64,000 nucleotides of DNA from the NCBI RefSeq assembly GCF_029714205.1, contig NZ_CP121648.1, positions 3,552,001 to 3,616,000 on the forward strand. The letters are read 5' to 3'. How positions within the stretch are numbered: the stretch's first letter is position 1; every line of letters starts with the position of its first letter. The notes under the pieces are model-generated. The model saw nothing but the letters and a program-made list of their open reading frames with translations, did no database searches and was not told the DNA's origin. Positions 8,247 through 44,734 of this stretch are shown here, in pieces. Made by a program: the position numbers and the translations under genes. The stretch is from Methylobacterium sp. CB376 (GTDB taxonomy: Bacteria > Pseudomonadota > Alphaproteobacteria > Rhizobiales > Beijerinckiaceae).

Positions 8247-9254
8247 TCAGGCGCTGGATTTCGGCTCGGAATCGTTCACCGCCACCGTGAAGGAACCGCC
8301 GCGGATCTCCTTCTCCTTGGCGAGGACGAGATCGATCACCGGCTGCGGCACCAGCTTCGGATCGAGGGGGGCGAGCGAGCAGCCGCCCTTGGCCATGTGG
8401 CTCCAGGGGCCGTAATCCTCCGCCGTGAAGCTGCCCTCGATGACCTTGGCGACGGCGCGGTCGATCGTCGGCTCCATGTGCCAGAGGGCCGAGGCGATCA
8501 CCGTGCCCGGGTATTGCGCGGCCGTGTCGATGACGTTGCCGATCGCCTTGACGCCGCGCTCCTTGGCGGCGTCGGAGACGCCGAAGCGCTCCGCGTAGAG
8601 CACGTCGGCCCTGCGCTCGATCATGGCGAAGGCGGTCTCCTTCGCCTTGGGCGGGTCGTACCAGGAATTGATGAAGGAGACCAGGAACTTGACGTCCGGA
8701 TTGACGGACCGGGCGCCGGCCATGAAGGCGTGCATCAGCCGGTTCACCTCCGGGATGGCGTAGCCGCCGACCATGCCGATGATGTTGGTCCTCGTCTCCT
8801 TCCCGGCCACGATCCCGGTCAGGTACGAGGCGTCCTGGATGTAGTTGTCGAAGACCGAGAGGTTGGGCGCCTGCGCCGGGAAGGACGAGCCCATCAGGAA
8901 GGCGGTGGACTTGTAGTCGGCGGCGATCCGGCGCGCCGGCCGCTCCAGGCCGAAGGCCTCGCCGATGATCAGGTCCTTCCTGCCCTCCGCGTATTCGCGC
9001 AGGACGCGCTCGGCATCGGTGTTGGCGACGTTCTCGGAATACGCGTAGGTGATGTCGCCGCGCGCCTGCGCCGCCTTGAGGGCGAGGTGGATGCGGCTGA
9101 TCCATTGCTGCTCGATCGGCACCGAGGCGACGAGGGCGACGGCGATGGGCTTCGCCTTCGCGGCGCGGGCGCCGCCGCATCCGAGCCCCGCGAGGGCCGC
9201 CCCGCCCGCCGCCAGCAGCGTGCGCCGGCTCAGCTGTCGTCCCGGGTCCGTCAT
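8247..9254 (-). CDS. BMP-family ABC transporter substrate-binding protein
   Basis: Periplasmic binding protein of 335 residues in the basic membrane protein (PnrA/BmpA) family, whose characterised members bind nucleosides. The N-terminus carries a twin-arginine export signal (SRRTLL, then an Ala/Gly-rich stretch ending near GLGCGGARA), so Tat export is likely; the cysteine does not make a convincing lipobox. The mature protein starts near KPIAVALVASVP and has the family's WISRIHLAL and GMVGGYAIPEV stretches. The ATG at 9254 has a strong GGGGAGGAGGACC ribosome binding site. It is the first gene of a two-gene unit with the ATPase. Confidence 0.9.
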   Translation of the reverse strand: MTDPGRQLSRRTLLAAGGAALAGLGCGGARAAKAKPIAVALVASVPIEQQWISRIHLALKAAQARGDITYAYSENVANTDAERVLREYAEGRKDLIIGEAFGLERPARRIAADYKSTAFLMGSSFPAQAPNLSVFDNYIQDASYLTGIVAGKETRTNIIGMVGGYAIPEVNRLMHAFMAGARSVNPDVKFLVSFINSWYDPPKAKETAFAMIERRADVLYAERFGVSDAAKERGVKAIGNVIDTAAQYPGTVIASALWHMEPTIDRAVAKVIEGSFTAEDYGPWSHMAKGGCSLAPLDPKLVPQPVIDLVLAKEKEIRGGSFTVAVNDSEPKSSA

Positions 9255-9409
9255 GGTCCTCCTCCCCGAAAGCCCGGGCAGGCGACCATGGCGGGCGGCG
9301 CGGCGCAAGCCGTTTCGGCAGGCAATCCTGACCGGTTTGCGCTCAGCGGCCGAGGCTGACGCGTCCGTCTCCCCGCCACCGGCCCGGCGGCCTCTCCGGC
9401 GGATGGGGC

Positions 9410-12004
9410 TCAGGCCGTCACGGTGAAGCAGGTCCCCAGGCAGGGCTCGACCTCGATCCGCGCGTTGATCTGCTCCAGCATCGCCCGCACGAGCTTCATG
9501 CCGAGGCCGGTGCCGCGGGCCGGGGCCTCGGCCCAGCCCGTCGGCAGTCCGCGCCCCTCGTCGCGCACCGAGAGGCGCACGCGGCCCTCCGCCTGGGAGG
9601 CGACGCTCACGGAGACCCGCCCGCCCTCCGCGCCGTCATAGGCGTACTTGAAGGCGTTGGTGACGAGTTCGGTGGCGATCAGCGAGAGGGCCACCGCCTT
9701 GCGGTAGGGCACCATCAGGCCCTGCTCGGCATCGAGTTCCAGCGTGTGGCGATCCCCGGCCATGGCCGAGAGGTCCGCGCACAGGTTCTCGATGGTCTGC
9801 CCGAGATCGACCTCGTCCACGCTCTCCGTCTGGTAGAGGCTGTCATGCACGCGGGCGACGCTCATCACCCGCCCCATCGTCTCCGAGAAGGCCTGCTGGG
9901 CCGCCGGATCCTTCACCTGGCGCCGCTGCATGTGCAGGAAGGCCGAGACGATCTGCAGCGAGTTCTTGACCCGGTGGTCGATCTCCTTGGCGAGCAGGTC
10001 CTTCTCGGCGAGCAGCGCCTCCTTCTCGGCGAGCAGGCCGGTGAGTTCGGCGATCTTGCGCCGCTGGCGCAGCACCACCCCCTCCACCGCCTGGGCCAGC
10101 GCCTCGGCCATGCCGACCTGCCACTCGGCGAAGGGCTCGGCGGCGCCGCGCCGCTCCTCCACCCAGCGCTCGAAGGAGCGGCGCGGCAGCATCGTGGCGG
10201 TGCCGGCGGCGGCGAGGACGGGCTTGCGCGGGTCGCCGCCCCAGGTGACCGTGCTCGACACCTCCGGCCGAAACCAGAGCAGGAGATGATCGCGGGCCGG
10301 ATCGACGAAGGCCGCGAGCAAGCCGCTCGCGATCTCCGCGTAGGGCCGGGTCGGCGGGTGCTCCGCCGCGAACTCCGTGGCCGCGTAGCTCGACCGTTCG
10401 GCCGGCAGGCGCGCGCGCAGATGCGCCGCGATGGCCAGGATCGCCGCGTCCGGGGGCGCGGCGCCGAGCCGGCGCACGGCGCCCTGCGCGACGATGGCCG
10501 CCCCGGTCGCGCCGAAGAGGTCGAGGAGCGTCGTCTCGCCGGAGGTGAGCGCCGTGAGCACGTCGTCCGAGCGGGCGAGCGCGCGCACGAGCCGGCTCTC
10601 GGCCGCCAGATGCGCCTGCTGCTCGCGCCGGAGACGGCGGCTCTCCAATTCGTGCAGCCGCAGCGCCAGGGCGTCGGTCAGCAGGCCCGCGGCGGCGCGC
10701 GTCTCGGGGGCGACGTAGTGCGGCTTGCGGTGATGCCCGATCATCAGGCCCCAGAGCCGGCCCTCGAGCAGGATCGAGACCGACATGGAGCCGTTCACCC
10801 CGAGATTGCGCTGGTACTCCAGGTGGATCGGCGACAGGCTGCGGCTCTGCGCGAAGGTCAGGTCGATCGGCCCCGGCGCGTCCGGGCCCGCCAGCAGCGG
10901 GACCGGCACGTAGTCGCGGTCGATGACGAAGCGGCTCTTCGCCCGCGCGTAGAGGGCGCGTGCCTGGGCCGGGATGTCGGAGGCGGGGAAGTGCAGCCCG
11001 AGGAGCGAGCGGTCCCAGGCGGGATCCCGCGCCTCCGCGATGGCCTCGCCGTTCCAGTCCGCGTCGAAGCGGTAAATCAGGATGCAGTCGAAGCCGGTGA
11101 GGCGCCGCGCCTCCCGGGCGGCGACGCGGGCCGCCTCGGCCAGCGTCTCGGCCGCCCGCAGGTGACCGATCGCCTCCTCGACCTCGGCGAGGCTCGCCGC
11201 CGCGAAATCCGCCGGATCGGCCGGCACCCGTTCGAGCTCGACGATCACCCGCGCCCCGCTGCGATGCGCCAGCACCTCGTGCGGGGCACCCCCGGGCGCC
11301 AGGGCCGTGCGCCAGCGCAGGATCCGCCCCGCCTCCCAGGCGGAGGCGGCGGCCGCGCGGATCGCCGCGACGAGCGGGTCCGGCAGCAGTCCGGCGAGCG
11401 GGCGGCCGAGCGGCGCGGCGCCGAGGGTCTCGGCCGCATTGGCGCTGCAGGCGGCCACGGTCAGGGTCGCCGCGTCGCAGGCGAGCAGGACGGCGTGCGG
11501 CTGGATCGCGCCGGGGACGTGGATCGGCTCCCGCGCGCAGAGATCGGGATCGATCGGCTCCGCCCGGACGCGCTGGTCGACCGCGACGCGGACCGCCTCA
11601 CGGGCCTCCGAGACGGTGACCTGCCCGACGGGCCGCGTCACGATCCAGTAGCGGCCGGGCGTCGCCGAGCCGCGCAGGGCGACGCGGACCCGCAGCGGCT
11701 GCGGATCGAAGCCGTAGGCGAAGGAGAACACCTCGTCGAGGACGCCCCGCCGCACCCCCTCGCGGAAGCGGCCGTAGAAGGCGGGCAGGCGCGTGCAGGG
11801 CGCGACGTCGCGGAAGAAGTTGCGGCCGACGACGCGCTCCGCCGACCGGCCCGAGAACACGCTCTCGGCCCGGTTGTAGAGGAGGATCGTCCCGTCGGAA
11901 TCGACCTGGACGACGCCCAGGTCGAGGGCGTCGATCTCCCCGGTCGAGAGGGCGTCGAGCCGCGCGGCTTCCGCGGCCAGCGCGCGGTCGGACATCGTGT
12001 TCAT
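9410..12004 (-). CDS. Hybrid photoreceptor histidine kinase: PYP + bacteriophytochrome + HisKA_2
   Basis: 864-residue soluble light sensor kinase resembling Ppr of purple bacteria. Residues 1-127 match photoactive yellow protein: Y43, E47, S51, R53 and C70 in DVAPCT align with Hhal PYP Y42, E46, T50, R52 and the p-coumarate cysteine C69. Next is a phytochrome photosensory core: C156 in DLCAREPIH (the biliverdin cysteine position), PAS, GAF with PASDIPAQAR (about 340-349) and a PHY domain with PRRSF in the tongue (about 608). The end is a HisKA_2 domain with H677 (KEIDHRVKN) and an ATPase domain with DEGRGLP and GTGLGMKLV. The ATG at 12004 is used; a GTG just before is possible. No chromophore gene or partner regulator is adjacent. 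Confidence 0.93.
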   Translation of the reverse strand: MNTMSDRALAAEAARLDALSTGEIDALDLGVVQVDSDGTILLYNRAESVFSGRSAERVVGRNFFRDVAPCTRLPAFYGRFREGVRRGVLDEVFSFAYGFDPQPLRVRVALRGSATPGRYWIVTRPVGQVTVSEAREAVRVAVDQRVRAEPIDPDLCAREPIHVPGAIQPHAVLLACDAATLTVAACSANAAETLGAAPLGRPLAGLLPDPLVAAIRAAAASAWEAGRILRWRTALAPGGAPHEVLAHRSGARVIVELERVPADPADFAAASLAEVEEAIGHLRAAETLAEAARVAAREARRLTGFDCILIYRFDADWNGEAIAEARDPAWDRSLLGLHFPASDIPAQARALYARAKSRFVIDRDYVPVPLLAGPDAPGPIDLTFAQSRSLSPIHLEYQRNLGVNGSMSVSILLEGRLWGLMIGHHRKPHYVAPETRAAAGLLTDALALRLHELESRRLRREQQAHLAAESRLVRALARSDDVLTALTSGETTLLDLFGATGAAIVAQGAVRRLGAAPPDAAILAIAAHLRARLPAERSSYAATEFAAEHPPTRPYAEIASGLLAAFVDPARDHLLLWFRPEVSSTVTWGGDPRKPVLAAAGTATMLPRRSFERWVEERRGAAEPFAEWQVGMAEALAQAVEGVVLRQRRKIAELTGLLAEKEALLAEKDLLAKEIDHRVKNSLQIVSAFLHMQRRQVKDPAAQQAFSETMGRVMSVARVHDSLYQTESVDEVDLGQTIENLCADLSAMAGDRHTLELDAEQGLMVPYRKAVALSLIATELVTNAFKYAYDGAEGGRVSVSVASQAEGRVRLSVRDEGRGLPTGWAEAPARGTGLGMKLVRAMLEQINARIEVEPCLGTCFTVTA

Positions 12005-12201
12005 CACAGCGGTCTAATCTTATCGGCTTAAGCTGAAGCCGAAAAGTGCCGGGCTGACGCCGCGCCCGGCCGCGCGACGGGGCGGGCCTCGCCAGGGACG
12101 ATCCGTCGCGACCGCCCACCCTGCCGCCGCTCCCCCCGCATCGCGCCGCCCCGTGCTCCTCGACCGCCAGGAAGCGCGGGCGATTGCGATTGGTTCCGCG
12201 G

Positions 12202-12867
12202 TCAGCCGCCCGCCGGTTCGGCGAGGAGCCCCGCCACGAAGGCGTCGAGCCCGACCTGCCGGGTGCGGCGCAGGCGCTCGGCGCTGAGGATCGCCTCCAG
12301 GGTCTTGAAGGAGCGGTCGAGGTCGTCGTTGACGAGGACGTAGTCGTATTCCGACCAGCGCTCGATCTCGCTGCGGGCATTGCGCAGGCGCCGCTCGATC
12401 GTCTCGCGGGAATCCTCGGCCCGGCGCTCCAGGCGGCGGCGCAGCTCCGCCATGCTGGGCGGCAGGATGAAGATCGTCACCACGTCGTCGCGCAGCTTGG
12501 CGCGCACCTGCCGCGTGCCCTGGTAATCGATGTCGAAGATCATGTCGCGGCCGGCCGCGAGCGCCCGCTCGACCGGGCGGCGCGGCGTTCCGTAGAAATT
12601 GCCGTGCACCTCGGCCCATTCGAGCATGTCGTCGCGCTCGCGCAGCTGCTCGAAGGTCTCCCGGTCGATGAAGCGGTAGTGCTGGCCGTCGATCTCGGAG
12701 GGCCGCCGGGCCCTGGTCGTCACCGAGACCGAGAGCTCGAGCCCCCATTCGGGCTGCTGGGCGAGGGCGCGGGTCAGCGTCGTCTTGCCCGCCCCCGAGG
12801 GCGAGGACAGGATCAGGACCAGACCGCGCCGCGACACCGGCGTCTGCGACCCCACGCTCATCTGCAC
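12202..12867 (-). CDS. gmk: Guanylate kinase
   Basis: Converts GMP to GDP with ATP in the cytosol, needed for nucleotide and (p)ppGpp supply. Visible features are the P-loop SSPSGAGKTT (about 21-30), the GMP-binding stretch SVTTRARRPSEIDGQHYRF and NFYGTPRRPVE, and a total of about 220 residues, normal for the family. The ORF opens GTG CAG ATG: the GTG at 12867 has GGGAGA at good spacing, the ATG at 12861 is the alternative. It is the last gene of the yicC-gmk end of the fab/mltG cluster. Confidence 0.95.
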   Translation of the reverse strand: MQMSVGSQTPVSRRGLVLILSSPSGAGKTTLTRALAQQPEWGLELSVSVTTRARRPSEIDGQHYRFIDRETFEQLRERDDMLEWAEVHGNFYGTPRRPVERALAAGRDMIFDIDYQGTRQVRAKLRDDVVTIFILPPSMAELRRRLERRAEDSRETIERRLRNARSEIERWSEYDYVLVNDDLDRSFKTLEAILSAERLRRTRQVGLDAFVAGLLAEPAGG

Positions 12868-15931: not shown

Positions 15932-16771
15932 ATGACGACGGGAATCAGAGGCTTGAGCAATCGCTCCGACACGGGAGTGTCTTTCGTAAACACTGAAAAC
16001 TCACGAGATGATCGCTATATCCATCCAAATACAAAAGATTATAGTGTCTATGCCTGGATCTCACAGCACCGCGAACGCCCATTGGTTGTACAAACCAAAA
16101 AAGGCACGCTCAAGATTTGGGATAGTGACTGGAAGATATACGGAAATTGGAACGGGCAATCCGATTTTACCCTGATACCGGATGCGAAGAATACGCAGGA
16201 TTATTTTATAAACGTCGACGAGTCGGGAGATATCTATTTATCCATCGGCGAAGGCACGAAGAACCGCTACCTTCAGGTCACGGCGATCAAGTGCATCAAA
16301 CCGTCCGAGCCGGTGGCGAGCGGCCCGCCGGCCTTCTTCCTGGCCGTCCTGGGCGGCGCCGCCGCTCTCGCCGTGACCGTCGGCACCGCAGGAACGGGTG
16401 CGATCGTGCTCTCCGTGGCAGGAGGCGCCATCGGCGGCCTGGCCGGCGCCGCCTCGATCTATCCGGAATTGAACAAGATCTTCGACGGGCTTCCCGACGA
16501 TGTCTTCCTGAGCGTGAACGGCAACAAGGTCTGGCCTCAAAACCAGAATTGCGTCAGCATGAAATCGCAAGAGAGAAAAGAAGTCAATATGATGTTCCAA
16601 ATGACGGACGAGATGAAGCTTGAAATCTACGATTGGGACGTGATTCGCAATGATGTATTAGGCTCGCGCACTTTCCATAAAAGCAGGCCAGAAGATATTG
16701 GTGGCTTCATCATGTTCGGCAACAACGAAGGAGCATTGTATGAGGTCGAATGTGCGATCGTTTATGCCTAG
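15932..16771 (+). CDS. Unrecognised protein with a glycine-rich hydrophobic core and C2-like end
   Basis: I do not recognise this 279-residue protein. The ATG at 15932 has an excellent ribosome binding site (AGGAGGACAG). Residues about 1-125 are polar, aromatic and beta-rich (KIWDSDWKIYGNWNG, YLSIGEGTKNRYLQV). Residues about 130-175 form a long Gly/Ala hydrophobic stretch with glycine-zipper spacing (GGAIGGLAGAAS), suited to membrane insertion. The C-terminal about 90 residues start DDVFLSVNGNKVWP and contain LEIYDWDVIRNDVLG, which resembles a C2 domain calcium-binding loop. No signal peptide is seen. Codon use and AT content differ from all neighbours, and the gene sits between fabF and mltG, which suggests transfer. 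A pore-forming or membrane-lesion function is speculation. Confidence 0.75.
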   Translation: MTTGIRGLSNRSDTGVSFVNTENSRDDRYIHPNTKDYSVYAWISQHRERPLVVQTKKGTLKIWDSDWKIYGNWNGQSDFTLIPDAKNTQDYFINVDESGDIYLSIGEGTKNRYLQVTAIKCIKPSEPVASGPPAFFLAVLGGAAALAVTVGTAGTGAIVLSVAGGAIGGLAGAASIYPELNKIFDGLPDDVFLSVNGNKVWPQNQNCVSMKSQERKEVNMMFQMTDEMKLEIYDWDVIRNDVLGSRTFHKSRPEDIGGFIMFGNNEGALYEVECAIVYA

Positions 16772-35865: not shown

Positions 35866-36930
35866 ATGGCCGACGAGACCGATCAGGAGAGCAAGACCGA
35901 GAGCCCGACCGAGCGCCGCGTCCGCGAGGCGATCGAGAAGGGCGACGTTCCGGTCTCTCGGGAGGCGTCGGTGCTCGCCTCGGTGATCGGCCTGCTGATC
36001 GCCCTGACCCTGTTCGTGCGCGGGCAGGCGGCCACGCTCGCCCGCGAGTTCGTGCCCCTGATCGATCAGCCCCGGGGCTTCACCCTGGAGAATGCGCGCG
36101 ACGCCACGCTGCTGCTGCAGAGCGTCGCCATCGCCGCCGGCCGCTTCCTGCTGCCGGTCCTGGCCATCCTGGCGGTCTGCGGGCTCGCCGCCTCCATGCT
36201 GCAGAACCTGCCCCGCTTCGTCGGCGACCGCATCCAGCCGAAATGGTCGCGGGTCTCGCCCGCCTCCGGCTGGAGCCGCATCTTCGGCCGCTCGGGCCAG
36301 GTCGAGTTCCTGAAATCGCTCTTTAAGTTCCTCACGATCACTGTGGTCTCCCTGCTGCTGCTGCGCTCCGAGCGGCACAAAGTGCTGAACGCCATGACCG
36401 TCGATCCGAGCCAGGTACCGGAACTGATCCTGTCGATGGCGATCCGCCTCGTCTCGGCGGTCAGCATCGCCACGATCGTCCTCGTCGCCGCCGACCTGAT
36501 CTGGGCCCGGCTGCGCTGGCAGCGCTCGCTGCGGATGTCCCGCCAGGAGACCAAGGACGAGCACAAGCAGATCGAGGGCGATCCGCTGGTCAAGGCCCGC
36601 CTGCGCTCGCTGGCGCAGGACCGCACCCGCAAGCGGATGCTGGCGGCGGTGCCGCGCGCGACCGTGGTGATCGCCAACCCGACCCACTTCGCGGTGGCCC
36701 TGCGCTACGAGCGCGACGAGAACCCCGCCCCGCTGGTCGTTGCCAAGGGGCAGGACCTGATCGCCCTCAAGATCCGCGAGATCGCCGAGGCCAACGGCAT
36801 CCCGGTGATCGAAGACAAGCCTCTGGCAAGATCGCTCTATGATAGTGTGCAAGTGGATCAGTTGATCCCGGCTGAGTTTTACCGCGCTGTGGCTCAGATC
36901 CTGTTCTATGTGTTCGCGAGGTCGCGATGA
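35866..36930 (+). CDS. flhB: Flagellar export gate protein FlhB
   Basis: Membrane component of the flagellar type III export gate that controls the switch from hook to filament export. The 354 residues begin with the charged KTESPTERRVREAIEKGD stretch, have four membrane segments (about 30-50, 85-105, 145-165, 185-210) and a cytoplasmic autocleavage motif NPTH at 271-274. The start at 35866 is 58 bases after fliG. Its TGA overlaps the next start (ATGA). Confidence 0.95.
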   Translation: MADETDQESKTESPTERRVREAIEKGDVPVSREASVLASVIGLLIALTLFVRGQAATLAREFVPLIDQPRGFTLENARDATLLLQSVAIAAGRFLLPVLAILAVCGLAASMLQNLPRFVGDRIQPKWSRVSPASGWSRIFGRSGQVEFLKSLFKFLTITVVSLLLLRSERHKVLNAMTVDPSQVPELILSMAIRLVSAVSIATIVLVAADLIWARLRWQRSLRMSRQETKDEHKQIEGDPLVKARLRSLAQDRTRKRMLAAVPRATVVIANPTHFAVALRYERDENPAPLVVAKGQDLIALKIREIAEANGIPVIEDKPLARSLYDSVQVDQLIPAEFYRAVAQILFYVFARSR

Positions 36931-37373
36931 TGGCCCAAGCCTCTGACATGCCTGCCGGGATGCCGGCCGCGGCCAGCCTGCTCCAGGCGGCGGAGTGCAT
37001 CTTCGCGCACGAGATCCGCGACTTCATCGCCGAGTTCTGCCTGCTCGACGGCGGCGTGCTGATCGGCTGGGTGCGCGACGACCGCCACGGCAACATCGCC
37101 GACCTCGTCGCCTCCTCGGCCGAGCCGTTCTTCAAGGAATCCACCCTCACCTACGCCGACGCGGCCGACGTGAGCTTCTCCTGGGGCCGCTCGCCCACCG
37201 TCGTCCTCGACATGGAGTTCGGCAGCGAGGCGATGACGGTCTTCTTCAAGCTCGTCCTCGACGGCACCTACGTGGGCGTGGCGATCGACCGGATCCTGGC
37301 CGGCCCGGGCCTCGGCCTCGACCTGGAGCGCTTCGCCGAGGTGCTGACCCGGGCGCGGCTCGCGCCCGCCTGA
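36927..37373 (+). CDS. Hypothetical protein coupled to flhB
   Basis: A 148-residue soluble protein I cannot name. It has no signal or membrane segment and looks like a compact alpha/beta domain (CIFAHEIRDFIAEFCLLDGG, then GVLIGWVRDDRHGNIADLV, LEFGSEAMTVFFKLVLD-like strands and a final helix). Its ATG overlaps the flhB stop by four bases, so it is co-translated with flagellar genes. A role in flagellar assembly or regulation is inferred only from position. Seven codons into it lies another in-frame ATG. Confidence 0.7.
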   Translation: MMAQASDMPAGMPAAASLLQAAECIFAHEIRDFIAEFCLLDGGVLIGWVRDDRHGNIADLVASSAEPFFKESTLTYADAADVSFSWGRSPTVVLDMEFGSEAMTVFFKLVLDGTYVGVAIDRILAGPGLGLDLERFAEVLTRARLAPA

Positions 37374-37613
37374 GCCCAGGGGCGATGCCCCTGTGGCAGC
37401 TTTGCCCCGTTGTTGCATCGCTGCCATTGACCGAATCACCCACCCCGGACATGATCGTTCAAGAAGGGTTTGCAGCCTCCTTCGACCGACCATTTCCCCG
37501 CCGGAGAAGTTCTCGCCGTGGCCGCCCCAAGGGGGCCGGGCCCGCGTGCCGAGCTGCCGCCGGGACATGGACGGAGGATGACTGCCGAAAACGATGCACC
37601 GGGTCCCCGATCC

Positions 37614-38288
37614 ATGTACATTTTCGTCGATGACCGGCCGACGGTGACGAGCGGCTACGCGGCGAGTTTCGAGCGGGAGGGCGTTTCGTCCCTCGGGCTG
37701 ATGGGCGAGGAGTTCAAGAACTGGTTCAGCGCCGCCTCGGCCTGCGACCTCGACGCCATCCAGGGCTTCCTGCTCGGGGATTTCGCCGACCGCATGGCCT
37801 GCGCGAGCCTGATCCGGCGGCAGTCCCGCGCGCCGATCATCGCGCTGAGCGACGTGAGGACCCTCGAGACGACCCTGCAGCTCTTCACCGCGGGCATCGA
37901 CGACGTGCTCGGCAAGCCGGTGCACGTCCGGGAGATCCTGGCCCGCTCCGAGGCGATCTGGCGCCGGGTCAACGGCGAGACGCAGCCGGCCGGCGAGCAG
38001 GGCGAGCGCCTGAAGGTGCATTTCGACGGGCGCGACCCTGAGGTCGACGGCGAGACCCTGCCCCTGCCCCGGCGCGAGCGCAGCATCCTCGAGTACCTCG
38101 TCCGCAACCGCGGCCGCCGCCTGACGAAGGCGCAGATCTTCAACGCGATCTACGGCGTCTACAGCAACGAGGTCGAGGAGAGCGTGGTCGAGGGCCACGT
38201 CAGCAAGCTGCGCAAGAAGCTCCGGGAGCGGCTCGGCTACGACCCGATCGAGGCCAAGCGCTACATCGGCTACACGTTCGTCGGCTGA
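37614..38288 (+). CDS. ftcR: Flagellar transcriptional regulator FtcR/Rem-type
   Basis: OmpR-like regulator of 224 residues, matching FtcR (Brucella) and Rem (Sinorhizobium), the master activators of flagellar genes. An atypical receiver domain (IFVDDRP, SAPIIALSD-like strand, VLGKP with the conserved lysine) is followed by a winged helix (LPLPRRERSILEYLVRNRGRRLTKAQIFNAIYG to RYIGYTFVG). The phospho-acceptor aspartate is not obvious. The start MYIFVDDRP at 37614 is chosen by family; an ATG at 37578 is alternative but its GGAGG abuts the codon. It stands 240 bases after the operon and may have its own promoter. Confidence 0.85.
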   Translation: MYIFVDDRPTVTSGYAASFEREGVSSLGLMGEEFKNWFSAASACDLDAIQGFLLGDFADRMACASLIRRQSRAPIIALSDVRTLETTLQLFTAGIDDVLGKPVHVREILARSEAIWRRVNGETQPAGEQGERLKVHFDGRDPEVDGETLPLPRRERSILEYLVRNRGRRLTKAQIFNAIYGVYSNEVEESVVEGHVSKLRKKLRERLGYDPIEAKRYIGYTFVG

Positions 38289-38601
38289 GCGCGGCCCCGC
38301 GCGAAGGGGTCTCGCCTGATCGGTTCAGCGCCGCGATCCGGCAAGGCCGACATCGGCTGCCCGGGCTCTGGCCGCGCGGGTCCGGCCTGGGGAGGGGAGC
38401 CTGGGGACCCCGGATGGGTGATGACGGCATCGGCGGGTTTTCATGCCGGCCCGATCACCGGGAAGCCGCGCGACGCCGATCCCGCGCCGATCCGACCGGA
38501 AGCCCCGGAAGTCGAGGTGACCGCCAAGCTCCGTCCGATTCTGCGCGGATCAGGCGGAAACCCCATCACGCGCCGTGCGGTCCGCGTGCTTGGCGCCCGC
38601 G
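38289..38601. other. Intergenic stretch without a recognised gene
   Basis: About 310 bp between ftcR and repeat R copy C. Short overlapping frames on both strands show no plausible start signal or protein-like composition. Nothing regulatory stands out. Confidence 0.5.
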
Positions 38602-38792
38602 GTGATCCGGGACCAGCTTGACCCAAGCGGATCCCGGATCACGCGCCTGCGCGGCGCCTGAGCGCGGCGCCTGAGCGCGGCGCCTGAGCGCGGCGCCTGA
38701 GCGCGGCGCCTGAGCGCGGCGCCTGGGCGAAGCCGACATCCGCATGGCCGAAATGGGAGATGGCGAAGCCATCAACCGGATGGCGTATGACG
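38602..38792. repeat. Palindromic dispersed repeat, family R, copy C, with 13-bp unit repeated six times
   Basis: Starts with an imperfect version of the family palindrome (38602-38642), then five exact tandem copies of CGGCGCCTGAGCG and a sixth variant (38652-38729), then GCCGACATCCGCATGGCCG, GGGAGATGGCGAAGCCATC and CCGGATGGCG as in copy B. Copies A and B carry the 13-bp unit only once per element. Confidence 0.88.
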
Positions 38793-38880
38793 GACCGCGT
38801 CCGCCAGCACCCCGGTCCCGGTCCTCCGGGCTCGCCGCGCGTGAGGGGAGCGCGCCGCTCGCGGGCGCGCCGGGCGGGCC

Positions 38881-39435
38881 CTACTGGCAGAAGGCCCGCG
38901 CCTGAGGCGTCCAGGTGCCGAAGCCGGTCGCCACCATGTTGGTGATGACTTGGCAGACATACTGCTTCTGGGCGGGGTTGTTGTTCGGGCCGGCGTGATA
39001 GCGCGCCACCGCGAGCGTCCAGGTGCCCTCGCGGGCCTTCAGCTCCTTGAGGAACCGCGTCGCGTATTCGACATTCGCTTTCGGATCCAGCATCGCCTCG
39101 ACGGAGCCGAACTTGGCCCCGTGGAAGTGATGGTTGATCTGCATGCAGCCGAGATCGATCAGCCGGGCGCCGCGGCGCCGGGCCTCGTCGAACTTGGCGC
39201 GCACGTCCGCGACGCTGCTGCCGAAATACGGCTTCCCCTCGATGTTCATGGCGAAGGGCTGCAGCGAGCCGCGCTTGCCGCTCTCGGTGAGCCCCACCGC
39301 GTAGAGCATGCCGAGCGGCACGCCGTGCCGCGTCGCCGCCTGCGCCATCTCGCGCTCGCAGACATTGGCGGCGACCGGCCCGGCGCTAGAGATAAACGCC
39401 GCTGCGGCCAGAATTGGACTGCGAACCCGTCTCAT
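38881..39435 (-). CDS. Periplasmic lytic transglycosylase of the flagellar cluster
   Basis: A 184-residue exported SLT-domain protein. A signal peptide (RSPILAAAAFISSAGPVAA) is followed by CEREMAQAATRHGVPLGMLYAVGLTESG, where the E of GLTESG is the catalytic glutamate, then DLGCMQINHHFHG and VARYHAGPNNNP. In Rhizobiales a transglycosylase gene follows fliK and probably opens peptidoglycan for the flagellar rod. The ATG at 39435 gives a proper signal peptide; it overlaps the end of fliK by 50 bases. Confidence 0.88.
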   Translation of the reverse strand: MRRVRSPILAAAAFISSAGPVAANVCEREMAQAATRHGVPLGMLYAVGLTESGKRGSLQPFAMNIEGKPYFGSSVADVRAKFDEARRRGARLIDLGCMQINHHFHGAKFGSVEAMLDPKANVEYATRFLKELKAREGTWTLAVARYHAGPNNNPAQKQYVCQVITNMVATGFGTWTPQARAFCQ

Positions 39436-41398
39436 CCTGCGTGTTCCCTCGCGCTCCGGCGCGCTGGTCGGCACCCGCCTCCTGGCGGCGGGCCGGGTGG
39501 TCGGACCCGTCGGCGAAGGAAGGCTGTCCGCCGCCCGGCGCGCCGAACCCTCCGCTCCCTGCCGGGGACGCGAAGCCCTGCGGGCCGCTGCCCCGGGAAT
39601 CCGCCGCCTGGATGCCGATGCTGTCGGGCCGGTATCCGGCCTCCCGCAGCAGTCCGGCGAGGAGGTCCGCATCCTTGCGCAGCATCTCCGCCGTCTCGGC
39701 ACGGCTGGTCTTGAGACTCATGTCGAGCTGCCCGTCGCGCAGGCGCATCGTCACCGTGACCGAGCCGAGATCGGCCGGTCTCAGCTGGAGCGTCAGGATG
39801 CGCAGCGGTCCGGCCGCCATCGCGGTGCTCGGTCCGCCCTGCGCGTCGAGAGAGGCCACGAGGTGCGGCAGCGTGGCGGAGGGCAGGGCGCCCGAGGGCG
39901 GCGCGCCCGGAGGAGGTGCGGATGACGGCCTCGCGGCCGCACCGGCCGCATTCACCGGCAGGGCGAGCGCCCCCGGATCGCCCGCGTCGCCCGGGCGCGG
40001 CGCCTCGGCCGGGAACCCGGCAGCCGTCATTCCCGCGACAGGTTCGGCGGCCACCGTCGGCGTCCCGGCATGCGCGCGGATCGGCGCACGGGCCTCCTGG
40101 CGCCCGCCCTCGGCGGCCGCCGGCGCGACAGGACCGGCCTTGGCCGGCCCCGGCGCGTCCGTGCCGCCGAACCCGTCCCCTGCCCGATCGCCGACGGCCC
40201 GGTTCTCGCCCGCGGCGCCGGAGTCGCGGCCGGCCCGACCGCCGGGCCCGAGGGGCCGCGGCGCGATCCCCGCGCGGGCCGACGGGCCCGCCACCGGCTG
40301 CGACGCGGCGGGCGCGGAAGCTGCCGGCCGCGCGCCCGCGTCGCCCGCCGGAGCCGACGCGAGGGCGGCCTGCGGCGACGAGGAGGATCCCGCCGCCTGC
40401 CTGCTCGCGGGCAGCTCGGGGACCGGCGCCGCGGAGGCCAGGAGGGCGGCCGAGCCGGCCGCATCCGGCCGGGGCGCCGTCGCGGGCGCTGCCGCATCGC
40501 GGGCGGGTGCGGAGGAATCCTGGACCCGGTTCGGCCACCCGGTCGTCGCGGTGGCGCTCGGCGTGGCGAGGGCCCTCGCCGGCCCCCCTGCGGCCCAGGT
40601 CGGGTCGGTCGAAGGCGCGTCCGCGCGCTGCGGGCGCGACGGCCCGCTCGCCGCCCCGGTCGGACCGGAGGGCCGCGGGGCGCCCACGCCGGCGCGTCCG
40701 CCCGCGGCACCGGACGCAGCGAGGGCGTCGGGCCGGAGCAGGCGCGGCGCGGCCTCCCCGGCCGGAGGCGGCTCGGCCTCCTGGGTGAGGGCGGCGAGCG
40801 CCGCGACGGGATCCCCGCCGGCCTCGGGCCCGGCCGCCAGCAGCTGCGGCATGACCGGGTTGAAGTGGGTTTCCTGCGCCAGGACCGTCGCAGGCGGCAG
40901 GACGGTCGCGACCGGCGCCGGCCCGGTGCCGGGCGCGAGCAGCGCCGGAGGCTGAGCGGGGACCGCCGGCGCAGCCGTCTGATCCGCGGCGGCGACCGAG
41001 GCGGACGCGCCGAACGCGCCGAGCTGGGCCGCGAGGGCGGCCACGGCTTCCTGCGCGAGCGCGGCGGTGAGGGCATTCGCGACATCCGGCCGCTCCGGCG
41101 CCGTCGCGGGTGCGGGGCCCGGGGCCTCGGTCGAGGCGGCGCCGTCCCCCTCGCCGGCCGCCAGCGCGCTGAGGCGCTGCAGGAGCGCGGCGGCCCGTTC
41201 CTGCTTCGGCGGCGCCGGCGCGATGAGGGCGGCCGGGCCCCGGGCCGGCGCGTCGCGGCGCTCGTCCAGGGCATCGAGCACCGTGTCGAAGCTGTCCTGG
41301 CCGGAGGGGGCCCGGCCATCCCCGTCCGAGGATCCCCGGCCGGACGTCGCGTCGACGGCGATCCGGATCAGGCCGTGGAGGCTGTCGAGGGCGTTCAT
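39386..41398 (-). CDS. fliK: Flagellar hook-length control protein FliK
   Basis: Exported ruler protein that sets hook length and triggers the FlhB switch. The 670-residue protein is mostly an Ala/Pro/Gly-rich low-complexity ruler, longer than the enteric about 400. The C-terminal Flg_hook domain (about 545-620) has LRILTLQLRPADLGSVTVTM, RDGQLDMSLKTSRAETAEML and LAGLLREAGYRPDSIGIQ. The ATG at 41398 overlaps the motC stop (ATGA). The reading frame stays open far upstream through motC and motB; that extension is not coding. Confidence 0.88.
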   Translation of the reverse strand: MNALDSLHGLIRIAVDATSGRGSSDGDGRAPSGQDSFDTVLDALDERRDAPARGPAALIAPAPPKQERAAALLQRLSALAAGEGDGAASTEAPGPAPATAPERPDVANALTAALAQEAVAALAAQLGAFGASASVAAADQTAAPAVPAQPPALLAPGTGPAPVATVLPPATVLAQETHFNPVMPQLLAAGPEAGGDPVAALAALTQEAEPPPAGEAAPRLLRPDALAASGAAGGRAGVGAPRPSGPTGAASGPSRPQRADAPSTDPTWAAGGPARALATPSATATTGWPNRVQDSSAPARDAAAPATAPRPDAAGSAALLASAAPVPELPASRQAAGSSSSPQAALASAPAGDAGARPAASAPAASQPVAGPSARAGIAPRPLGPGGRAGRDSGAAGENRAVGDRAGDGFGGTDAPGPAKAGPVAPAAAEGGRQEARAPIRAHAGTPTVAAEPVAGMTAAGFPAEAPRPGDAGDPGALALPVNAAGAAARPSSAPPPGAPPSGALPSATLPHLVASLDAQGGPSTAMAAGPLRILTLQLRPADLGSVTVTMRLRDGQLDMSLKTSRAETAEMLRKDADLLAGLLREAGYRPDSIGIQAADSRGSGPQGFASPAGSGGFGAPGGGQPSFADGSDHPARRQEAGADQRAGARGNTQDETGSQSNSGRSGVYL

Positions 41399-42733
41399 GG
41401 GCGCGTCCTCCGCATCATGTCGTCGATCTGTTCGATCGCCTCCTGGGCGCGGGCGATCGTCTTGGCCTGGGGGACGGGCCGCTTGCCGTCGGCGGCCTCC
41501 TCGGGAGGAGTCGCGGGAGCGGGCGGCAGGTCGCGGCGGATCTGCGCCGCCGTCGACAGGGCGGCGTCGAGCAGACCGGCATCCGCGCTCGGCAGGGCCG
41601 CGCGGTCCAGGCTGCGCAGCACCGCGTAGGCGCCGTCGAACCCGTCCGGCGTGGCGATCGCGGCCGCCGCCCGGTAGAGCCGGGCCTGGGCCGCCCTCAC
41701 GCTGCCGGCCTCGACCAGGGCCGCCGCGCGGTTGGCGGCGAAGACCGCGGCCCGCATCTCCCCCTGCTCCACCGCCGCCCGGGCGACGAGCAGGTAGAGG
41801 TCGCCCCGCCCCTCGGGCTCGATCTCGGCCAGCATCGCTTCCAGGCGCCCGATCCGGACCGGGTCGTCGCCGTATTTGAGGCGGGTGAGCGCCGCGGCGA
41901 AGCGCTGGCGGAAATTGCCCGCGTAGACCGAGTGCCGGAAGCGCCGCAGGTACTGGATCGAGAGCGCCTCGAAGCGCGGGATGTTGCCCGCCTGGGCGAG
42001 GACGAACACCTCGCGGCGCAGCGCCCCCTCCTCCACCAGCGTGCCCGGGGCGAGCAGCCGGGCGAGATCGAGGAGCCGGAGGGCCTGATCGGGATTCTCG
42101 CGCACCACCAGGGCGGATTGCGCGAGGGCGACCTGGCCGCCGAGGCTGGCCGGAAGGGTCTGCGCGTCGAGCTTGGTGAGCACCGTGCGGGCGTCCCTCT
42201 CGCGCCCCTCCAGGAAGGCGAGGGCTCCCTGCAGGAGCGGCGCCTCGGAATCCGGCAGGCTGCCGGCCTCGATCACGCGCCGGAGCACGCCCGGCCCGCC
42301 GCCGGCGAGCGCGAAGGTCACGGCGGCCTGCACGTTGGCGGGCTTGCCCCAGGTCTCCGGTTCGAGCCCGATCAGGCGCTGCTCGATATGCGCGATGAGC
42401 TGGCGCTGGGCGAGGTGGGCCTGGGTGCCGCCGCGGGCGATGCGGTCCTGAAGGAGCTGCAGCGTGCGCACGAGCTCGACCGACAGGCTGCGCGGCGCGA
42501 CCGGCAGCGGCGCGACGACCGCCGCGGCGGCGGAACCGCCGTGCCCGCCACCGCCGCCCGCCGCCGGAGGGCTCGCCGCGTGGCCGGAACCGGCCGCGCC
42601 CTCGGCCTTGCCGTCGCCGTGGCCGCCCGCCCCGCCCCCCCCTCGCCCGCGCGGCGCCGGCGAGGACCAGGCCGCAGAGCAGGGCCAGCGCGACGGGCCG
42701 CCCGAGGGCGCGCGGGACCCTCTGGCCCGTCAC
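41395..42733 (-). pseudogene. motC: Chemotaxis/motility protein MotC, frame broken in an 8-base C run
   Basis: Periplasmic protein that positions MotB in Rhizobiales. The GTG at 42733 overlaps the motB stop (GTGA) and encodes a good signal peptide (RPVALALLCGLVLAGAARA). The mature protein (PLPVAPRSLSVELVRTLQ, then a helical repeat region to 41395) is in the neighbouring frame. The shift maps to eight C at 42635-42642; removing one joins the frames through a Gly/Ala/His-rich linker into about 445 residues, the family length. It is a sequencing error, a real mutation or a reversible slippage site. The stop overlaps fliK (ATGA). Confidence 0.8.
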
Positions 42734-44070
42734 TCGGGCTTCTCCCGCAGCAGGATCTCGATGCGCCGGTTCTCGGCGGCCATCGGATCGGAGGGATTGC
42801 GCGGCTGCCGGTCGGCGTGGCCCTCGATCCGGACGATGCGGCGCTCCGCGACGCCGCCGCGGATCAGCATGTAGGCCGCCATCTGCGCCCGGGCGCTCGA
42901 CAGGCGCCAGTTGTCGTAGCTCTCCGACTTGAACGGGCGCGCATCCGTGTGGCCGCGCAGGACGATCTGGCCCGGCCGGCTGCTCAGCACCTTGGCGATG
43001 CGCTCCAGGGCCTTGACCACCTTCGCCTGCGGCTCGGCCGAACCGACGTTGAACATGCTGAAATTGAGCTCGTCCGTGATGCTGATGAGCGTGCCTTCGC
43101 CGGTGCGGCGCACCTCGACCTTCGGGGCCGGTGCTCCGGTCGCGAGGGGCTGGACCGCCTTCAGGACCTCCGCCTTGAGCTCGGCCAGGGCGGCGTTCTC
43201 GCCCGGCTCCGCGGCCTTGGCGTCGACCGGCGCGACGGCCGCGGGCTTGACCTCCGCGGGCTTGGCCTCCGCGGGCTTGGCCTCCGCAGGCTTGGCCTCC
43301 GCAGGCTTGGCCTCGGCGGGTTTGGCCTCGGCGGGTTTGGCCTCGGCGGGTTTGGCCTCGGTCCGCTCCGGCTTCGCGCCCGGCGGCTTGAGCAGGTCGG
43401 CGATCTCCTTCGGCACCAGGTCCAGCCCCGTCCGACCCTCGCGCGCCGCATTCGGCAGCGCCGCCCTGGCATCGACGCGGCTGGGGGTCTTCGCCACGGT
43501 GTTGATCGGGCCGGGCGTCTCGCTGCGCGCCTGCGGCAGCGGGGCGACCTGCCAGTAGAGCGGGTCGAAGGGGTCGCGGGCCGCCTCGCCGCCGGTCACG
43601 CCCGGCTTGCCCTCCTGGACGGTGACCGCGTCGGCCGAGGAGGCGTCGCCGGGCCGCTCCGCATCGGCCTCGGCGGCGAGCTTCGCCAGGACCGCGTAGG
43701 GATCCTGGAACAGGGCCGCCTCCTTGGCGCGGCTGGCGGAGCCGCTCGTCGAGGAATCCTTGCCCTTGCCCTCGCCGCCCTTGCTCTCGCCGGTCTTGCC
43801 GGGCTCGCCGCTGTCGCTCGGCGCGTTGGTCGGATCGCGCAGCCCCTTCTTCTCGGGGGACATCTCGGCGAGGCGGATCGGGTTGAAGTAGTCGGCGATC
43901 GCGCTCTTCGTCTCCTTGCTGGTCGAGTTGACCAGCCACAGCACCAGGAAGAGCGACATCATGGCGGTCATGAAGTCGGCGAGCGCGATCTTCCAGGCGG
44001 CGCTGTGATGGCCGTCCTCGTCGTCGCCGCGGCGACGGACGATGATGATCTCGTGGGCCTCGTCCGCCAT
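42730..44070 (-). CDS. motB: Flagellar motor stator protein MotB
   Basis: Stator subunit that anchors MotA to peptidoglycan. The 446-residue protein has a single N-terminal membrane helix with the proton-binding D32 (LADFMTAMMSLFLVLWLV), a very long linker and a C-terminal OmpA/peptidoglycan-binding domain (LNFSMFNVGSAEPQ, GHTDARPFKSESYDNWRLS, MAAENRRIEILL). The linker carries seven tandem AKPAE pentapeptides (DNA about 43243-43357). It starts one base after the fliH-like gene and ends in a GTGA overlap with motC. Confidence 0.94.
   Translation of the reverse strand: MADEAHEIIIVRRRGDDEDGHHSAAWKIALADFMTAMMSLFLVLWLVNSTSKETKSAIADYFNPIRLAEMSPEKKGLRDPTNAPSDSGEPGKTGESKGGEGKGKDSSTSGSASRAKEAALFQDPYAVLAKLAAEADAERPGDASSADAVTVQEGKPGVTGGEAARDPFDPLYWQVAPLPQARSETPGPINTVAKTPSRVDARAALPNAAREGRTGLDLVPKEIADLLKPPGAKPERTEAKPAEAKPAEAKPAEAKPAEAKPAEAKPAEAKPAEVKPAAVAPVDAKAAEPGENAALAELKAEVLKAVQPLATGAPAPKVEVRRTGEGTLISITDELNFSMFNVGSAEPQAKVVKALERIAKVLSSRPGQIVLRGHTDARPFKSESYDNWRLSSARAQMAAYMLIRGGVAERRIVRIEGHADRQPRNPSDPMAAENRRIEILLREKPE
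43243..43357 (-). repeat. 15-bp tandem repeats encoding AKPAE pentapeptides in motB
   Basis: Seven consecutive units of about 15 bp (GCCTCSGCGGGCTTG-type on the plus strand) encode AKPAE repeats in the MotB linker. The units are near-identical, so copy number could change by slippage without a frameshift. Confidence 0.85.
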
Positions 44071-44071
44071 C

Positions 44072-44734
44072 TCAGGCCTCCGTCACCGCCGCCGAGAGCA
44101 GGCCGGTCCAGGCGGCGAGCTGCGACTCGATCACCGCGTCCTCCGCCGTCACGGTCACGTCCGCCCCCTGCGCGGGCGCGAAGGCGATCCCCTGCGCCTG
44201 CGGGCCGAGCGCCGCCGCGAGCGCGTCGAGCAGGTCCTGCGGGCCGCTCACCCGGACGGCCGGCTTGGCGGCATCCGCGAGGAGCCGCGCGATCGCGTCG
44301 CGCAACTCGGCGACGGCGCGGGCGCGCACCGCCTCGCCGAGAACCGGCAGGAGCAGGTGGGCCAGGCGCGCGGCCAGCCGGGCCTCGATCTCGCCCGTCG
44401 CCCGGATCAGCGCCGCCGCGAGGACCTGGCCCTCCTCCTCGGCCCAGGCCCGGCGGGATTCGCGCATCTGCGCGTCGGCGACGGCCTGGGATTCGGCGAG
44501 GGCGGCGTCCAGGGCGGCGGCGGTCTCGGCCGCCGCCTGGGCCCGGCCGAGCCTCCGGCCGCGCTCCTCGGCCTCCCGCAGCAGGGCCTCGCGGTCCTCC
44601 GCCGGGGGCGGGGGCGGGGGCGGCTCCGCCGAGCGGCGCGCGGAGCGCAGCAGGACGGCGAGGGGCTCGGCCTCGGCGGCGGCGGAGGTCTCCGCCGAGA
44701 AATCGGGCAGGTAGCGGGCGAAGATCGCGGTCAT
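44072..44734 (-). CDS. fliH: FliH-like flagellar export stator protein
   Basis: A 220-residue protein with a short N-terminal motif (MTAIFARYLPDF), a polyproline stretch, a long Ala/Glu/Arg-rich coiled coil (about 45-115) and a C-terminal globular part (ADAAKPAVRVSGPQDLLDAL and on), the layout of FliH/YscL-type stators of the export ATPase. Sequence identity in this family is low, so the name rests largely on architecture and its place between fliF and motB. Its ATG overlaps the fliF stop by one base. Confidence 0.72.
   Translation of the reverse strand: MTAIFARYLPDFSAETSAAAEAEPLAVLLRSARRSAEPPPPPPPAEDREALLREAEERGRRLGRAQAAAETAAALDAALAESQAVADAQMRESRRAWAEEEGQVLAAALIRATGEIEARLAARLAHLLLPVLGEAVRARAVAELRDAIARLLADAAKPAVRVSGPQDLLDALAAALGPQAQGIAFAPAQGADVTVTAEDAVIESQLAAWTGLLSAAVTEA

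Follow-up and report, generated by a model that had tools for sequence, protein, structure and literature searches.

Few natural receptors are known to carry both blue- and red-light chromophores, and the best studied of them comes from a purple phototroph. The Ppr protein of R. centenum (Rhodocista centenaria), 884 amino acids long with the kinase histidine at position 670, joins a photoactive yellow protein (PYP) domain, a bilin-binding phytochrome core and a histidine kinase in this order (PMC2993699). Methylobacterial Ppr proteins of the same architecture have already been published (Xing, Gumerov and Zhulin 2022, PMC9664959), in the one paper treating these proteins among the literature found on methylobacterial PYP-phytochromes, most subscription papers being outside reach. 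Ppd proteins (PYP-phytochrome-GGDEF/EAL) are likewise PYP-bacteriophytochrome fusions (PMC9664959). Here, we analyzed the ppr gene of another member of this genus, Methylobacterium sp. CB376, in a stretch of 64,000 nucleotides (NCBI RefSeq assembly GCF_029714205.1, contig NZ_CP121648.1, positions 3,552,001 to 3,616,000 of the forward strand; hereafter, the window). The methylobacterial Ppr family as such is known; the detail on the pocket pattern, the locus and the chromophore supply is new.

The window gene probably encodes a Ppr-type light-regulated histidine kinase made up of PYP, phytochrome and kinase parts, as judged from its sequence. The frame (9410..12004) is open on the minus strand, from an ATG at 12004 to a stop at 9410-9412, and specifies 864 amino acids plus the stop; it was identified by the open frame, its translation, its domains and its homologues. 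A preliminary description of the gene, to whose coordinates the strand is an addition, had proposed that PYP, a phytochrome core and a HisKA_2 kinase lie in one frame, and the intact frame and the Pfam and NCBIfam domains bear this out. From the N terminus, all on the minus strand, we found a PYP domain (residues 17-126, 11627..11956; NCBIfam photo_yellow model TIGR02373, 117.2 bits and E 4.6e-34 over residues 16-124) overlapped by a Pfam PAS match at residues 24-84; a PAS_2 domain (156-258, 11231..11539; PF08446, 69.8 bits), the first residue of which, C156, occupies the biliverdin cysteine position; a GAF domain (288-448, 10661..11143; PF01590, 40.8 bits) with DIP at 343-345, H394, Y397 and H424; a PHY domain (467-648, 10061..10606; PF00360, 138 bits) with the tongue motifs WGGDP and PRRSF; a HisKA_2 dimerization/phosphoacceptor domain (674-747, 9764..9985; PF07568, 85.3 bits; PF07536, 33.7 bits); and a HATPase_c catalytic domain (771-863, 9416..9694; PF02518, 51.4 bits). 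PYP, PAS-GAF-PHY and histidine kinase thus stand in a single chain in the Ppr order, and H677 opens the sequence HRVKN (residues 677-681), which has the HRxxN form of Pak-type kinases. The domain search suggested as a check in the preliminary description accordingly found both PYP, below the curated cut-off, and PHY, and the possibility that the two parts lie in different frames was answered by another record of the species, the genome of Methylobacterium sp. WSM2598, in which one frame encodes a protein 100% identical to that of the window.

Several scores weigh against this assignment, and the results on ligases and lyases given below stand on the same side: TIGR02373 has a curated cut-off of 143.05 bits, the BphP equivalog NF041576 reached 273 bits over residues 147-699 against a cut-off of 1040, and the PhyK model reached 111.5 bits against 750. 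The TIGR02373 model was built on four PYP seed sequences (PMC9664959). The PYP and phytochrome matches lie far beyond chance in sequence comparison. The best PDB match of the PYP part was Ppr-PYP of R. centenum, 1MZU (phmmer E 6e-35; 51% identity over 110 residues), followed by H. halophila-type PYP, and residues 148-648 matched a solved bacteriophytochrome at a phmmer E of 3e-90. The full-length AlphaFold2 model (42 sequences) had a mean pLDDT (predicted local distance difference test) of 81.5, with residues 11-130 at 83-97 by block and long predicted helices at 433-478 and 627-696; when only the PYP stretch was folded, with no alignment, the pLDDT was 37. All of the first 50 Foldseek rows listed for the full-length model were phytochromes or phytochrome constructs. 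Since the VIA structure list spans residues 131-647 and thus gives no test of the PYP part, the identity of PYP is based on the sequence matches and the full-length model.

The translation holds Y43, E47, S51, R53, C70, C156 and H677, and with these all the residues and motifs that had been named before (Y43, E47, R53, C70, C156, DIP, PRxSF and H677) were recovered. In the PYP pocket, Y43, E47 and C70 are the equivalents of Y42, E46 and C69, and the codon of C70 (11795..11797, minus strand) marks the expected p-coumaroyl thioester site, as aligned with the VAPCT-motif cysteine of H. halophila PYP and Ppr-PYP. The best 119 other homologues were 55-79% identical over 83-100% of the length. Together with the window protein they share, in 120 of 120 sequences, C156, D343, I344, P345, H394, Y397, H424, D591, R608, S610, H677, N783 and D815; W588 was conserved in 119 of the 120 proteins and G831 in 117.

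The likeness to Ppr of purple bacteria that had been claimed holds for R. centenum, where it was measured over the PYP part alone (the 51% given above); the window protein is 20 residues shorter, at 864 against 884 amino acids, with its kinase histidine at 677 rather than 670. The CheW and polyketide roles are features of the R. centenum Ppr, whereas the window protein is known from its sequence. Many published methylobacterial Ppr proteins have lost C69 (PMC9664959); in the window copy, residues equivalent to Y42, E46, R52 and C69 are all retained. The output of Ppd is a cyclic-di-GMP enzyme, in contrast to the histidine kinase with which the window protein ends. The classical bacteriophytochromes DrBphP and Agp1 share the PAS-GAF-PHY core, at 32-35% identity in the Foldseek alignments, but classical bacteriophytochromes are not known to carry an N-terminal PYP. 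The source genome (7.69 Mb, two contigs) itself encodes a second phytochrome kinase, which is of the classical kind and carries HisKA rather than HisKA_2. The genome also contains two reaction-centre genes (PF00124, 361 and 336 bits), so that the earlier label of a heterotrophic host is incomplete.

We then considered how widespread the protein is. At least 89 of 111 Methylobacterium genomes contain a PYP-phytochrome locus; eight candidates were scored per genome and the best matches listed, and further copies are possible. The description of the fusion as rare therefore does not apply to this genus, where it is the intact pocket that is less common. In the other 22 genomes, including the 8.8-Mb genome G175, no PYP-phytochrome was present among the matches listed. 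Altogether 94 loci were read, of which five are second places in a genome and one is the window's own. Among the best 120 proteins, the named ones were mostly from Methylobacterium or Methylorubrum, and one came from a metagenome-assembled genome labelled Parafilimonas; more distant Ppr relatives belong to Paracraurococcus, Roseomonas and Microvirga (55-57%) and to Sphingomonas lenta (56%). A family-wide search with TIGR02373 gave a match in 33 of 149 genomes and in none of the 149 over the cut-off. Outside the genus this search was weak, most of its matches with E values of 1e-5 to 1e-3 being short and resembling ordinary PAS domains. Six loci in other genera of the family (L089-L094) are short frames of 130-238 amino acids with PYP-model scores of 53-77 bits, all below the cut-off, which are possibly free-standing PYP-like proteins.

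The PYP pocket is all-or-nothing in the genus. Abbreviating Y43/E47/S51/R53/C70 as YESRC, we found the complete set at 18 of 93 readable loci, and the remaining 75 lacked both E47 and C70 (the 94th locus is a fragment without a PYP domain). R53 was kept in one of these 75 degenerate loci, all of which retained the biliverdin cysteine and the kinase histidine. The intact loci comprise full-length copies in 17 genomes (70-100% identity) and a truncated copy in G205. The same division was observed among the best 120 proteins, of which 118 have a PYP domain: 24 are YESRC and 94 lack E47 and C70, with R53 retained in three of the 94. Five of the intact-pocket proteins lie outside the Methylobacterium clade, at 55-58% identity. 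As a separate observation, nine degenerate copies (L182-L189 and L243, in G161, G166, G231, G228, G165, G221 and G215), with pockets that are mostly AALxG, had no dehydrogenase, heme oxygenase or gmk gene found nearby, and several of them are second copies. It has been reported that substitutions of E46 occur in <3% of PYP homologues (PMC9664959), which is hard to square with the present counts, the two sequence sets being different.

In a tree computed from the columns after residue 150 (96 of the 120 proteins, the others being ≥93% identical to a kept one and dropped; quick LG+G4 search), all 15 intact rows from Methylobacterium fall into a single clade (Shimodaira-Hasegawa-like approximate likelihood ratio test, SH-aLRT, 98). 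The adjoining clade of 74 rows (SH-aLRT 99) consists of 73 degenerate rows and one without a scorable PYP. The other five intact rows (P0113, P0117-P0119 and P0121) stand apart with two long degenerate branches (P0111 and P0120), which were joined in this tree, midpoint-rooted for drawing only. Over the whole tree the pocket label needs two changes. With a root among these outer rows, the pattern would be explained most simply by a pocket that was intact in the ancestor and was lost once, on the stem leading to the remaining Methylobacterium groups. By the species names of the best homologues, we equated the intact-pocket clade with group C (M. aquaticum, M. nodulans and others), which has been described as basal in the genus and found mostly in soil and water, with groups A, B and D on leaves (PMC9364378). 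The median omega (nonsynonymous over synonymous change) of PYP was 0.24 among intact loci (120 pairs) and 0.45 among degenerate loci (2769 pairs), and the ratio of nonsynonymous difference (pN) between PYP and GAF was 2.05 in the intact clade (103 pairs) versus 3.18 in the degenerate group (2594 pairs). The omega values are medians obtained by the Nei-Gojobori method from every pairing within the 16 intact and within the 75 degenerate loci, excluding the window copy (identical to that of G194) and the truncated copy of G205; they are limited by the non-independence of the pairs and, in the degenerate group, by partial saturation of synonymous difference (pS). Both measures point to tighter constraint on PYP among the intact sequences. 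Because the median omega is below 1 in both groups, the degenerate PYP domain gives the impression of relaxed selection or of a new use, not of a dead domain. The window Ppr, with its pocket intact, is a clean candidate for biochemical work and comes from a genus that is culturable and plant-associated; relatives with and without the blue pocket allow related proteins to be compared.

We next analyzed how the pocket could be supplied. PYP is loaded from p-coumaroyl-CoA, the activated form of the chromophore. The dedicated p-coumarate:CoA ligase (pCL; TIGR02372) reached at best 49.9 bits in the source genome, with all 40 candidates scored, against a cut-off of 334.7 bits, and was over the cut-off in none of the 111 genus genomes (up to 15 candidates scored per genome). 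Scores of 229-318 bits occurred in eleven genomes, none of them with an intact pocket, and the highest listed for intact-pocket genomes were 72.1 and 70.6 bits. The source genome contains two aromatic lyases (PF00221), one located about 0.9 kb from hutU and the other beside a StlD/DarB ketosynthase, and neither seems assignable as a tyrosine ammonia-lyase (TAL). We tried the first as a TAL link, since a PF00221 lyase at 604-614 bits is present in all 18 intact-pocket genomes, and rejected it: it lies near hutU and was also found in G175 and G251, and it was read as a HutH marker of the clade, on gene context and with no NCBIfam scan of the lyase itself. G175 (8.8 Mb) and G251 carry this high-scoring lyase of the intact clade, yet have no PYP-phytochrome among the matches listed. 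The second lyase (468 bits) was matched by eight NCBIfam lyase models, all below cut-off and with phe_am_lyase the best, and has counterparts in three other genomes (4/111 in all). Its substrate-pocket motif appears to fit neither the TAL pattern nor that of phenylalanine ammonia-lyase (PAL). An uncharacterized second lyase of a Methylobacterium has been grouped with cyanobacterial PAL (PMC2657906). The region of this lyase (L193 6484-9419, minus strand) holds the PAL-like lyase directly next to the StlD/DarB-family ketosynthase and a very long frame that is polyketide synthase-like by eye, and is possibly a resorcinol or stilbene-type natural product cluster.

A different source of activated p-coumarate may be a hydroxycinnamate cluster in the source genome, which contains an ADP-forming-type acyl-CoA ligase, a hydratase/lyase, an aldehyde dehydrogenase and a MarR-like regulator. 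The p-hydroxycinnamoyl-CoA hydratase/lyase scored 468.5 bits against a cut-off of 276 and shares 68% identity with 7XWC, a solved feruloyl-CoA hydratase/lyase. For the CoA ligase, all NCBIfam matches were below cut-off and the best solved relative was a 4-hydroxybutyrate-CoA ligase, a result to be counted with the unfavorable ones above; we take the feruloyl-CoA ligase FerA of Sphingobium to be of the same type. Among the best 120 of 4946 relatives of this ligase, the recognizable Methylobacterium ones were P0122 (99%), AMS5 and JK268. p-Coumarate has no methoxy group, so that vanA is not needed for it, and the cluster could therefore still serve p-coumarate. An ech gene and an adjoining vanillin dehydrogenase gene have been described in strains 4-46 and WSM2598, where vanA is missing, as possible remnants (PMC8963497); no word beginning with 'coumar' occurs in the main text of that paper, as far as it was accessible. 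On this basis we tentatively propose, as a rather doubtful possibility, that the blue chromophore is scavenged: plant p-coumarate from soil or root litter would be activated by a catabolic hydroxycinnamate CoA ligase instead of through TAL and pCL, ech and vdh would still serve p-coumarate, and the pocket would have decayed in the leaf-dwelling groups, which are mostly without hydroxycinnamate catabolism. If this were true, the response of the sensor to blue light would be confined to places that contain plant phenolics. The correlation of pocket loss with catabolism is limited, one loss on a stem being a single event and the lyase not tracking the pocket. Indeed, the hydroxycinnamoyl-CoA lyase model NF006588 was over cut-off in four of the 111 genomes (G000, G194, G160 and G204), and this lyase was rejected as a pocket marker because G160 and G204 carry a degenerate PYP. 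Eight weaker ech-like places, seven in intact-pocket genomes and one in G175, showed no clear ligase-lyase pair by eye.

These results bear on an alternative in which only the phytochrome half works and the PYP pocket is intact but empty, p-coumarate being neither made nor activated, so that the protein would be a red/far-red kinase in which PYP is an idle PAS domain. Neither the source genome nor the 111 genomes hold a dedicated ligase over the cut-off, no lyase here can be assigned as TAL, and the 75 of 93 loci that lost the pocket while keeping the biliverdin cysteine and the kinase histidine imply that the rest of the protein is retained without it. A pocket that is never filled would, however, be expected to degenerate, which is what happened in the sister lineages, and the five pocket residues persist together in 17 genomes, in the G205 copy and in the five outside proteins; we therefore consider an empty pocket unlikely. 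As for the dual-color sensor of the preliminary description, the protein has the residues known from the binding sites of both chromophores; dual-color sensing by the window Ppr is suggested rather than established, given that no dedicated ligase or assignable TAL was found. The missing chromophore pathway is a concrete and testable puzzle.

The locus differs from those of most relatives. Directly upstream of ppr, across a gap of about 0.2 kb, lies gmk for guanylate kinase (12202..12867, minus strand; PF00625, 160 bits), and directly downstream, across about 0.1 kb, a gene for a BMP/PnrA-type ABC substrate-binding protein (8247..9308, minus strand; PF02608, 126 bits). The direct neighbors are gmk and yicC upstream and two ABC transporter genes downstream, none of which is a regulator. 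In the intact clade the order on one strand is yicC, gmk, dihydrolipoyl dehydrogenase, ppr and heme oxygenase; dehydrogenase and heme oxygenase are both present at 14 of the 18 intact loci. In G153 and G205 the dehydrogenase is present and the other flank is masked, leaving the heme oxygenase side unreadable, and the window and G194, which belong to the same species, have neither gene at the ppr locus. This stripped-down locus was seen only in this species among the testable intact-pocket loci. At the 75 degenerate loci (matches >60 bits), both genes were found at 55, dehydrogenase only at eight, heme oxygenase only at two and neither at ten, some of these 20 incomplete loci being contig ends. 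At seven of the 20, however (G154, G173, G185, G203, G207, G224 and G232), ppr is followed by gmk at a distance of up to 0.5 kb, and the stretch was not seen to contain a heme oxygenase. According to published work, methylobacterial ppr always shares an operon with a dihydrolipoyl dehydrogenase gene, and PYP-phytochrome genes always have a heme oxygenase gene close by (PMC9664959); the window copy, unlike the published ones, has neither neighbor, and both rules fail for this species. The generalization that a dehydrogenase or heme oxygenase gene stands beside methylobacterial ppr is limited in this way.

The dehydrogenase is also of interest because it has been suggested that the PYP domain senses redox in some methylobacterial Ppr proteins, which combine Y42C/S50C with the dehydrogenase of the operon (PMC9664959). 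This was published for part of the degenerate group, and pockets with cysteine at both positions do occur in our genus survey. The window protein, however, has Y43 and S51 instead of two cysteines, and its locus is without the dehydrogenase; the best match elsewhere in the source genome is 30% identical to the query copy of L141, compared with 70-86% for the copies at intact loci of other species (L141 itself apart). Redox sensing by the window PYP is thus highly improbable. The dehydrogenase gene of a relative scored 551.6 bits with NF004939.

Just upstream of ppr, we noticed an 18-bp palindrome at 12024-12041 (CGGCTT, six bases, AAGCCG). As a candidate for a shared regulatory element it was rejected, since the pattern was not found in the stretches searched upstream of ppr or the dehydrogenase gene in 13 relatives, and no convincing common promoter stretch was seen in the part of this comparison that was covered.

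Biliverdin would plausibly be supplied by the one heme oxygenase of the source genome, which is unlinked to ppr. In one search direction it is 36-40% identical to five ppr-linked heme oxygenases across the greater part of these proteins; in the reverse comparison, one match covers a short stretch only, at 46%. Of the 111 genomes, only G194 gave a close copy (90% identity, the match running across a stop). The unlinked gene (L195 7881-8600, minus strand) ends in about five tandem FAREAV-like units.

For the signaling of a dual-color Ppr, we propose the following scheme. p-Coumarate on C70 would be isomerized by blue light, and biliverdin on C156 by red/far-red light; both signals may reach the kinase via the long predicted helices (433-478 and 627-696) and alter the autophosphorylation of H677. 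Biliverdin would presumably arrive via the unlinked heme oxygenase, and the blue chromophore via a CoA ligase that is not part of the dedicated PYP pathway. The phosphate would pass to a partner encoded elsewhere, because the protein carries no receiver domain and none of the genes directly beside ppr encodes a regulator. The likeliest output would be the general stress response, through PhyR or a single-domain regulator, because of the HRxxN kinase type; in Sphingomonas, HRxxN kinases of the HWE/HisKA_2 type (Paks) phosphorylate PhyR and SdrG in vitro (PMC5898713). The alternative for this output step is motility through CheW, as in R. centenum, where the kinase domain of Ppr binds CheW with a Kd of about 0.13 uM (PMC2993699). 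Genes of the FlhB, FliF and MotB families occur in the same window and would fit such an output, but HisKA_2 with HRxxN is the kinase type of the stress-response Paks, and we regard the CheW route as possible but not probable.

The flagellar genes of the window (FlhB, MotB-like and FliF by Pfam) are located at 35866-46452. At 15932-16771, a 279-amino-acid frame without a Pfam match lies on the strand opposite to its neighbors, between a frame that is mltG-like by eye and a beta-ketoacyl synthase gene.

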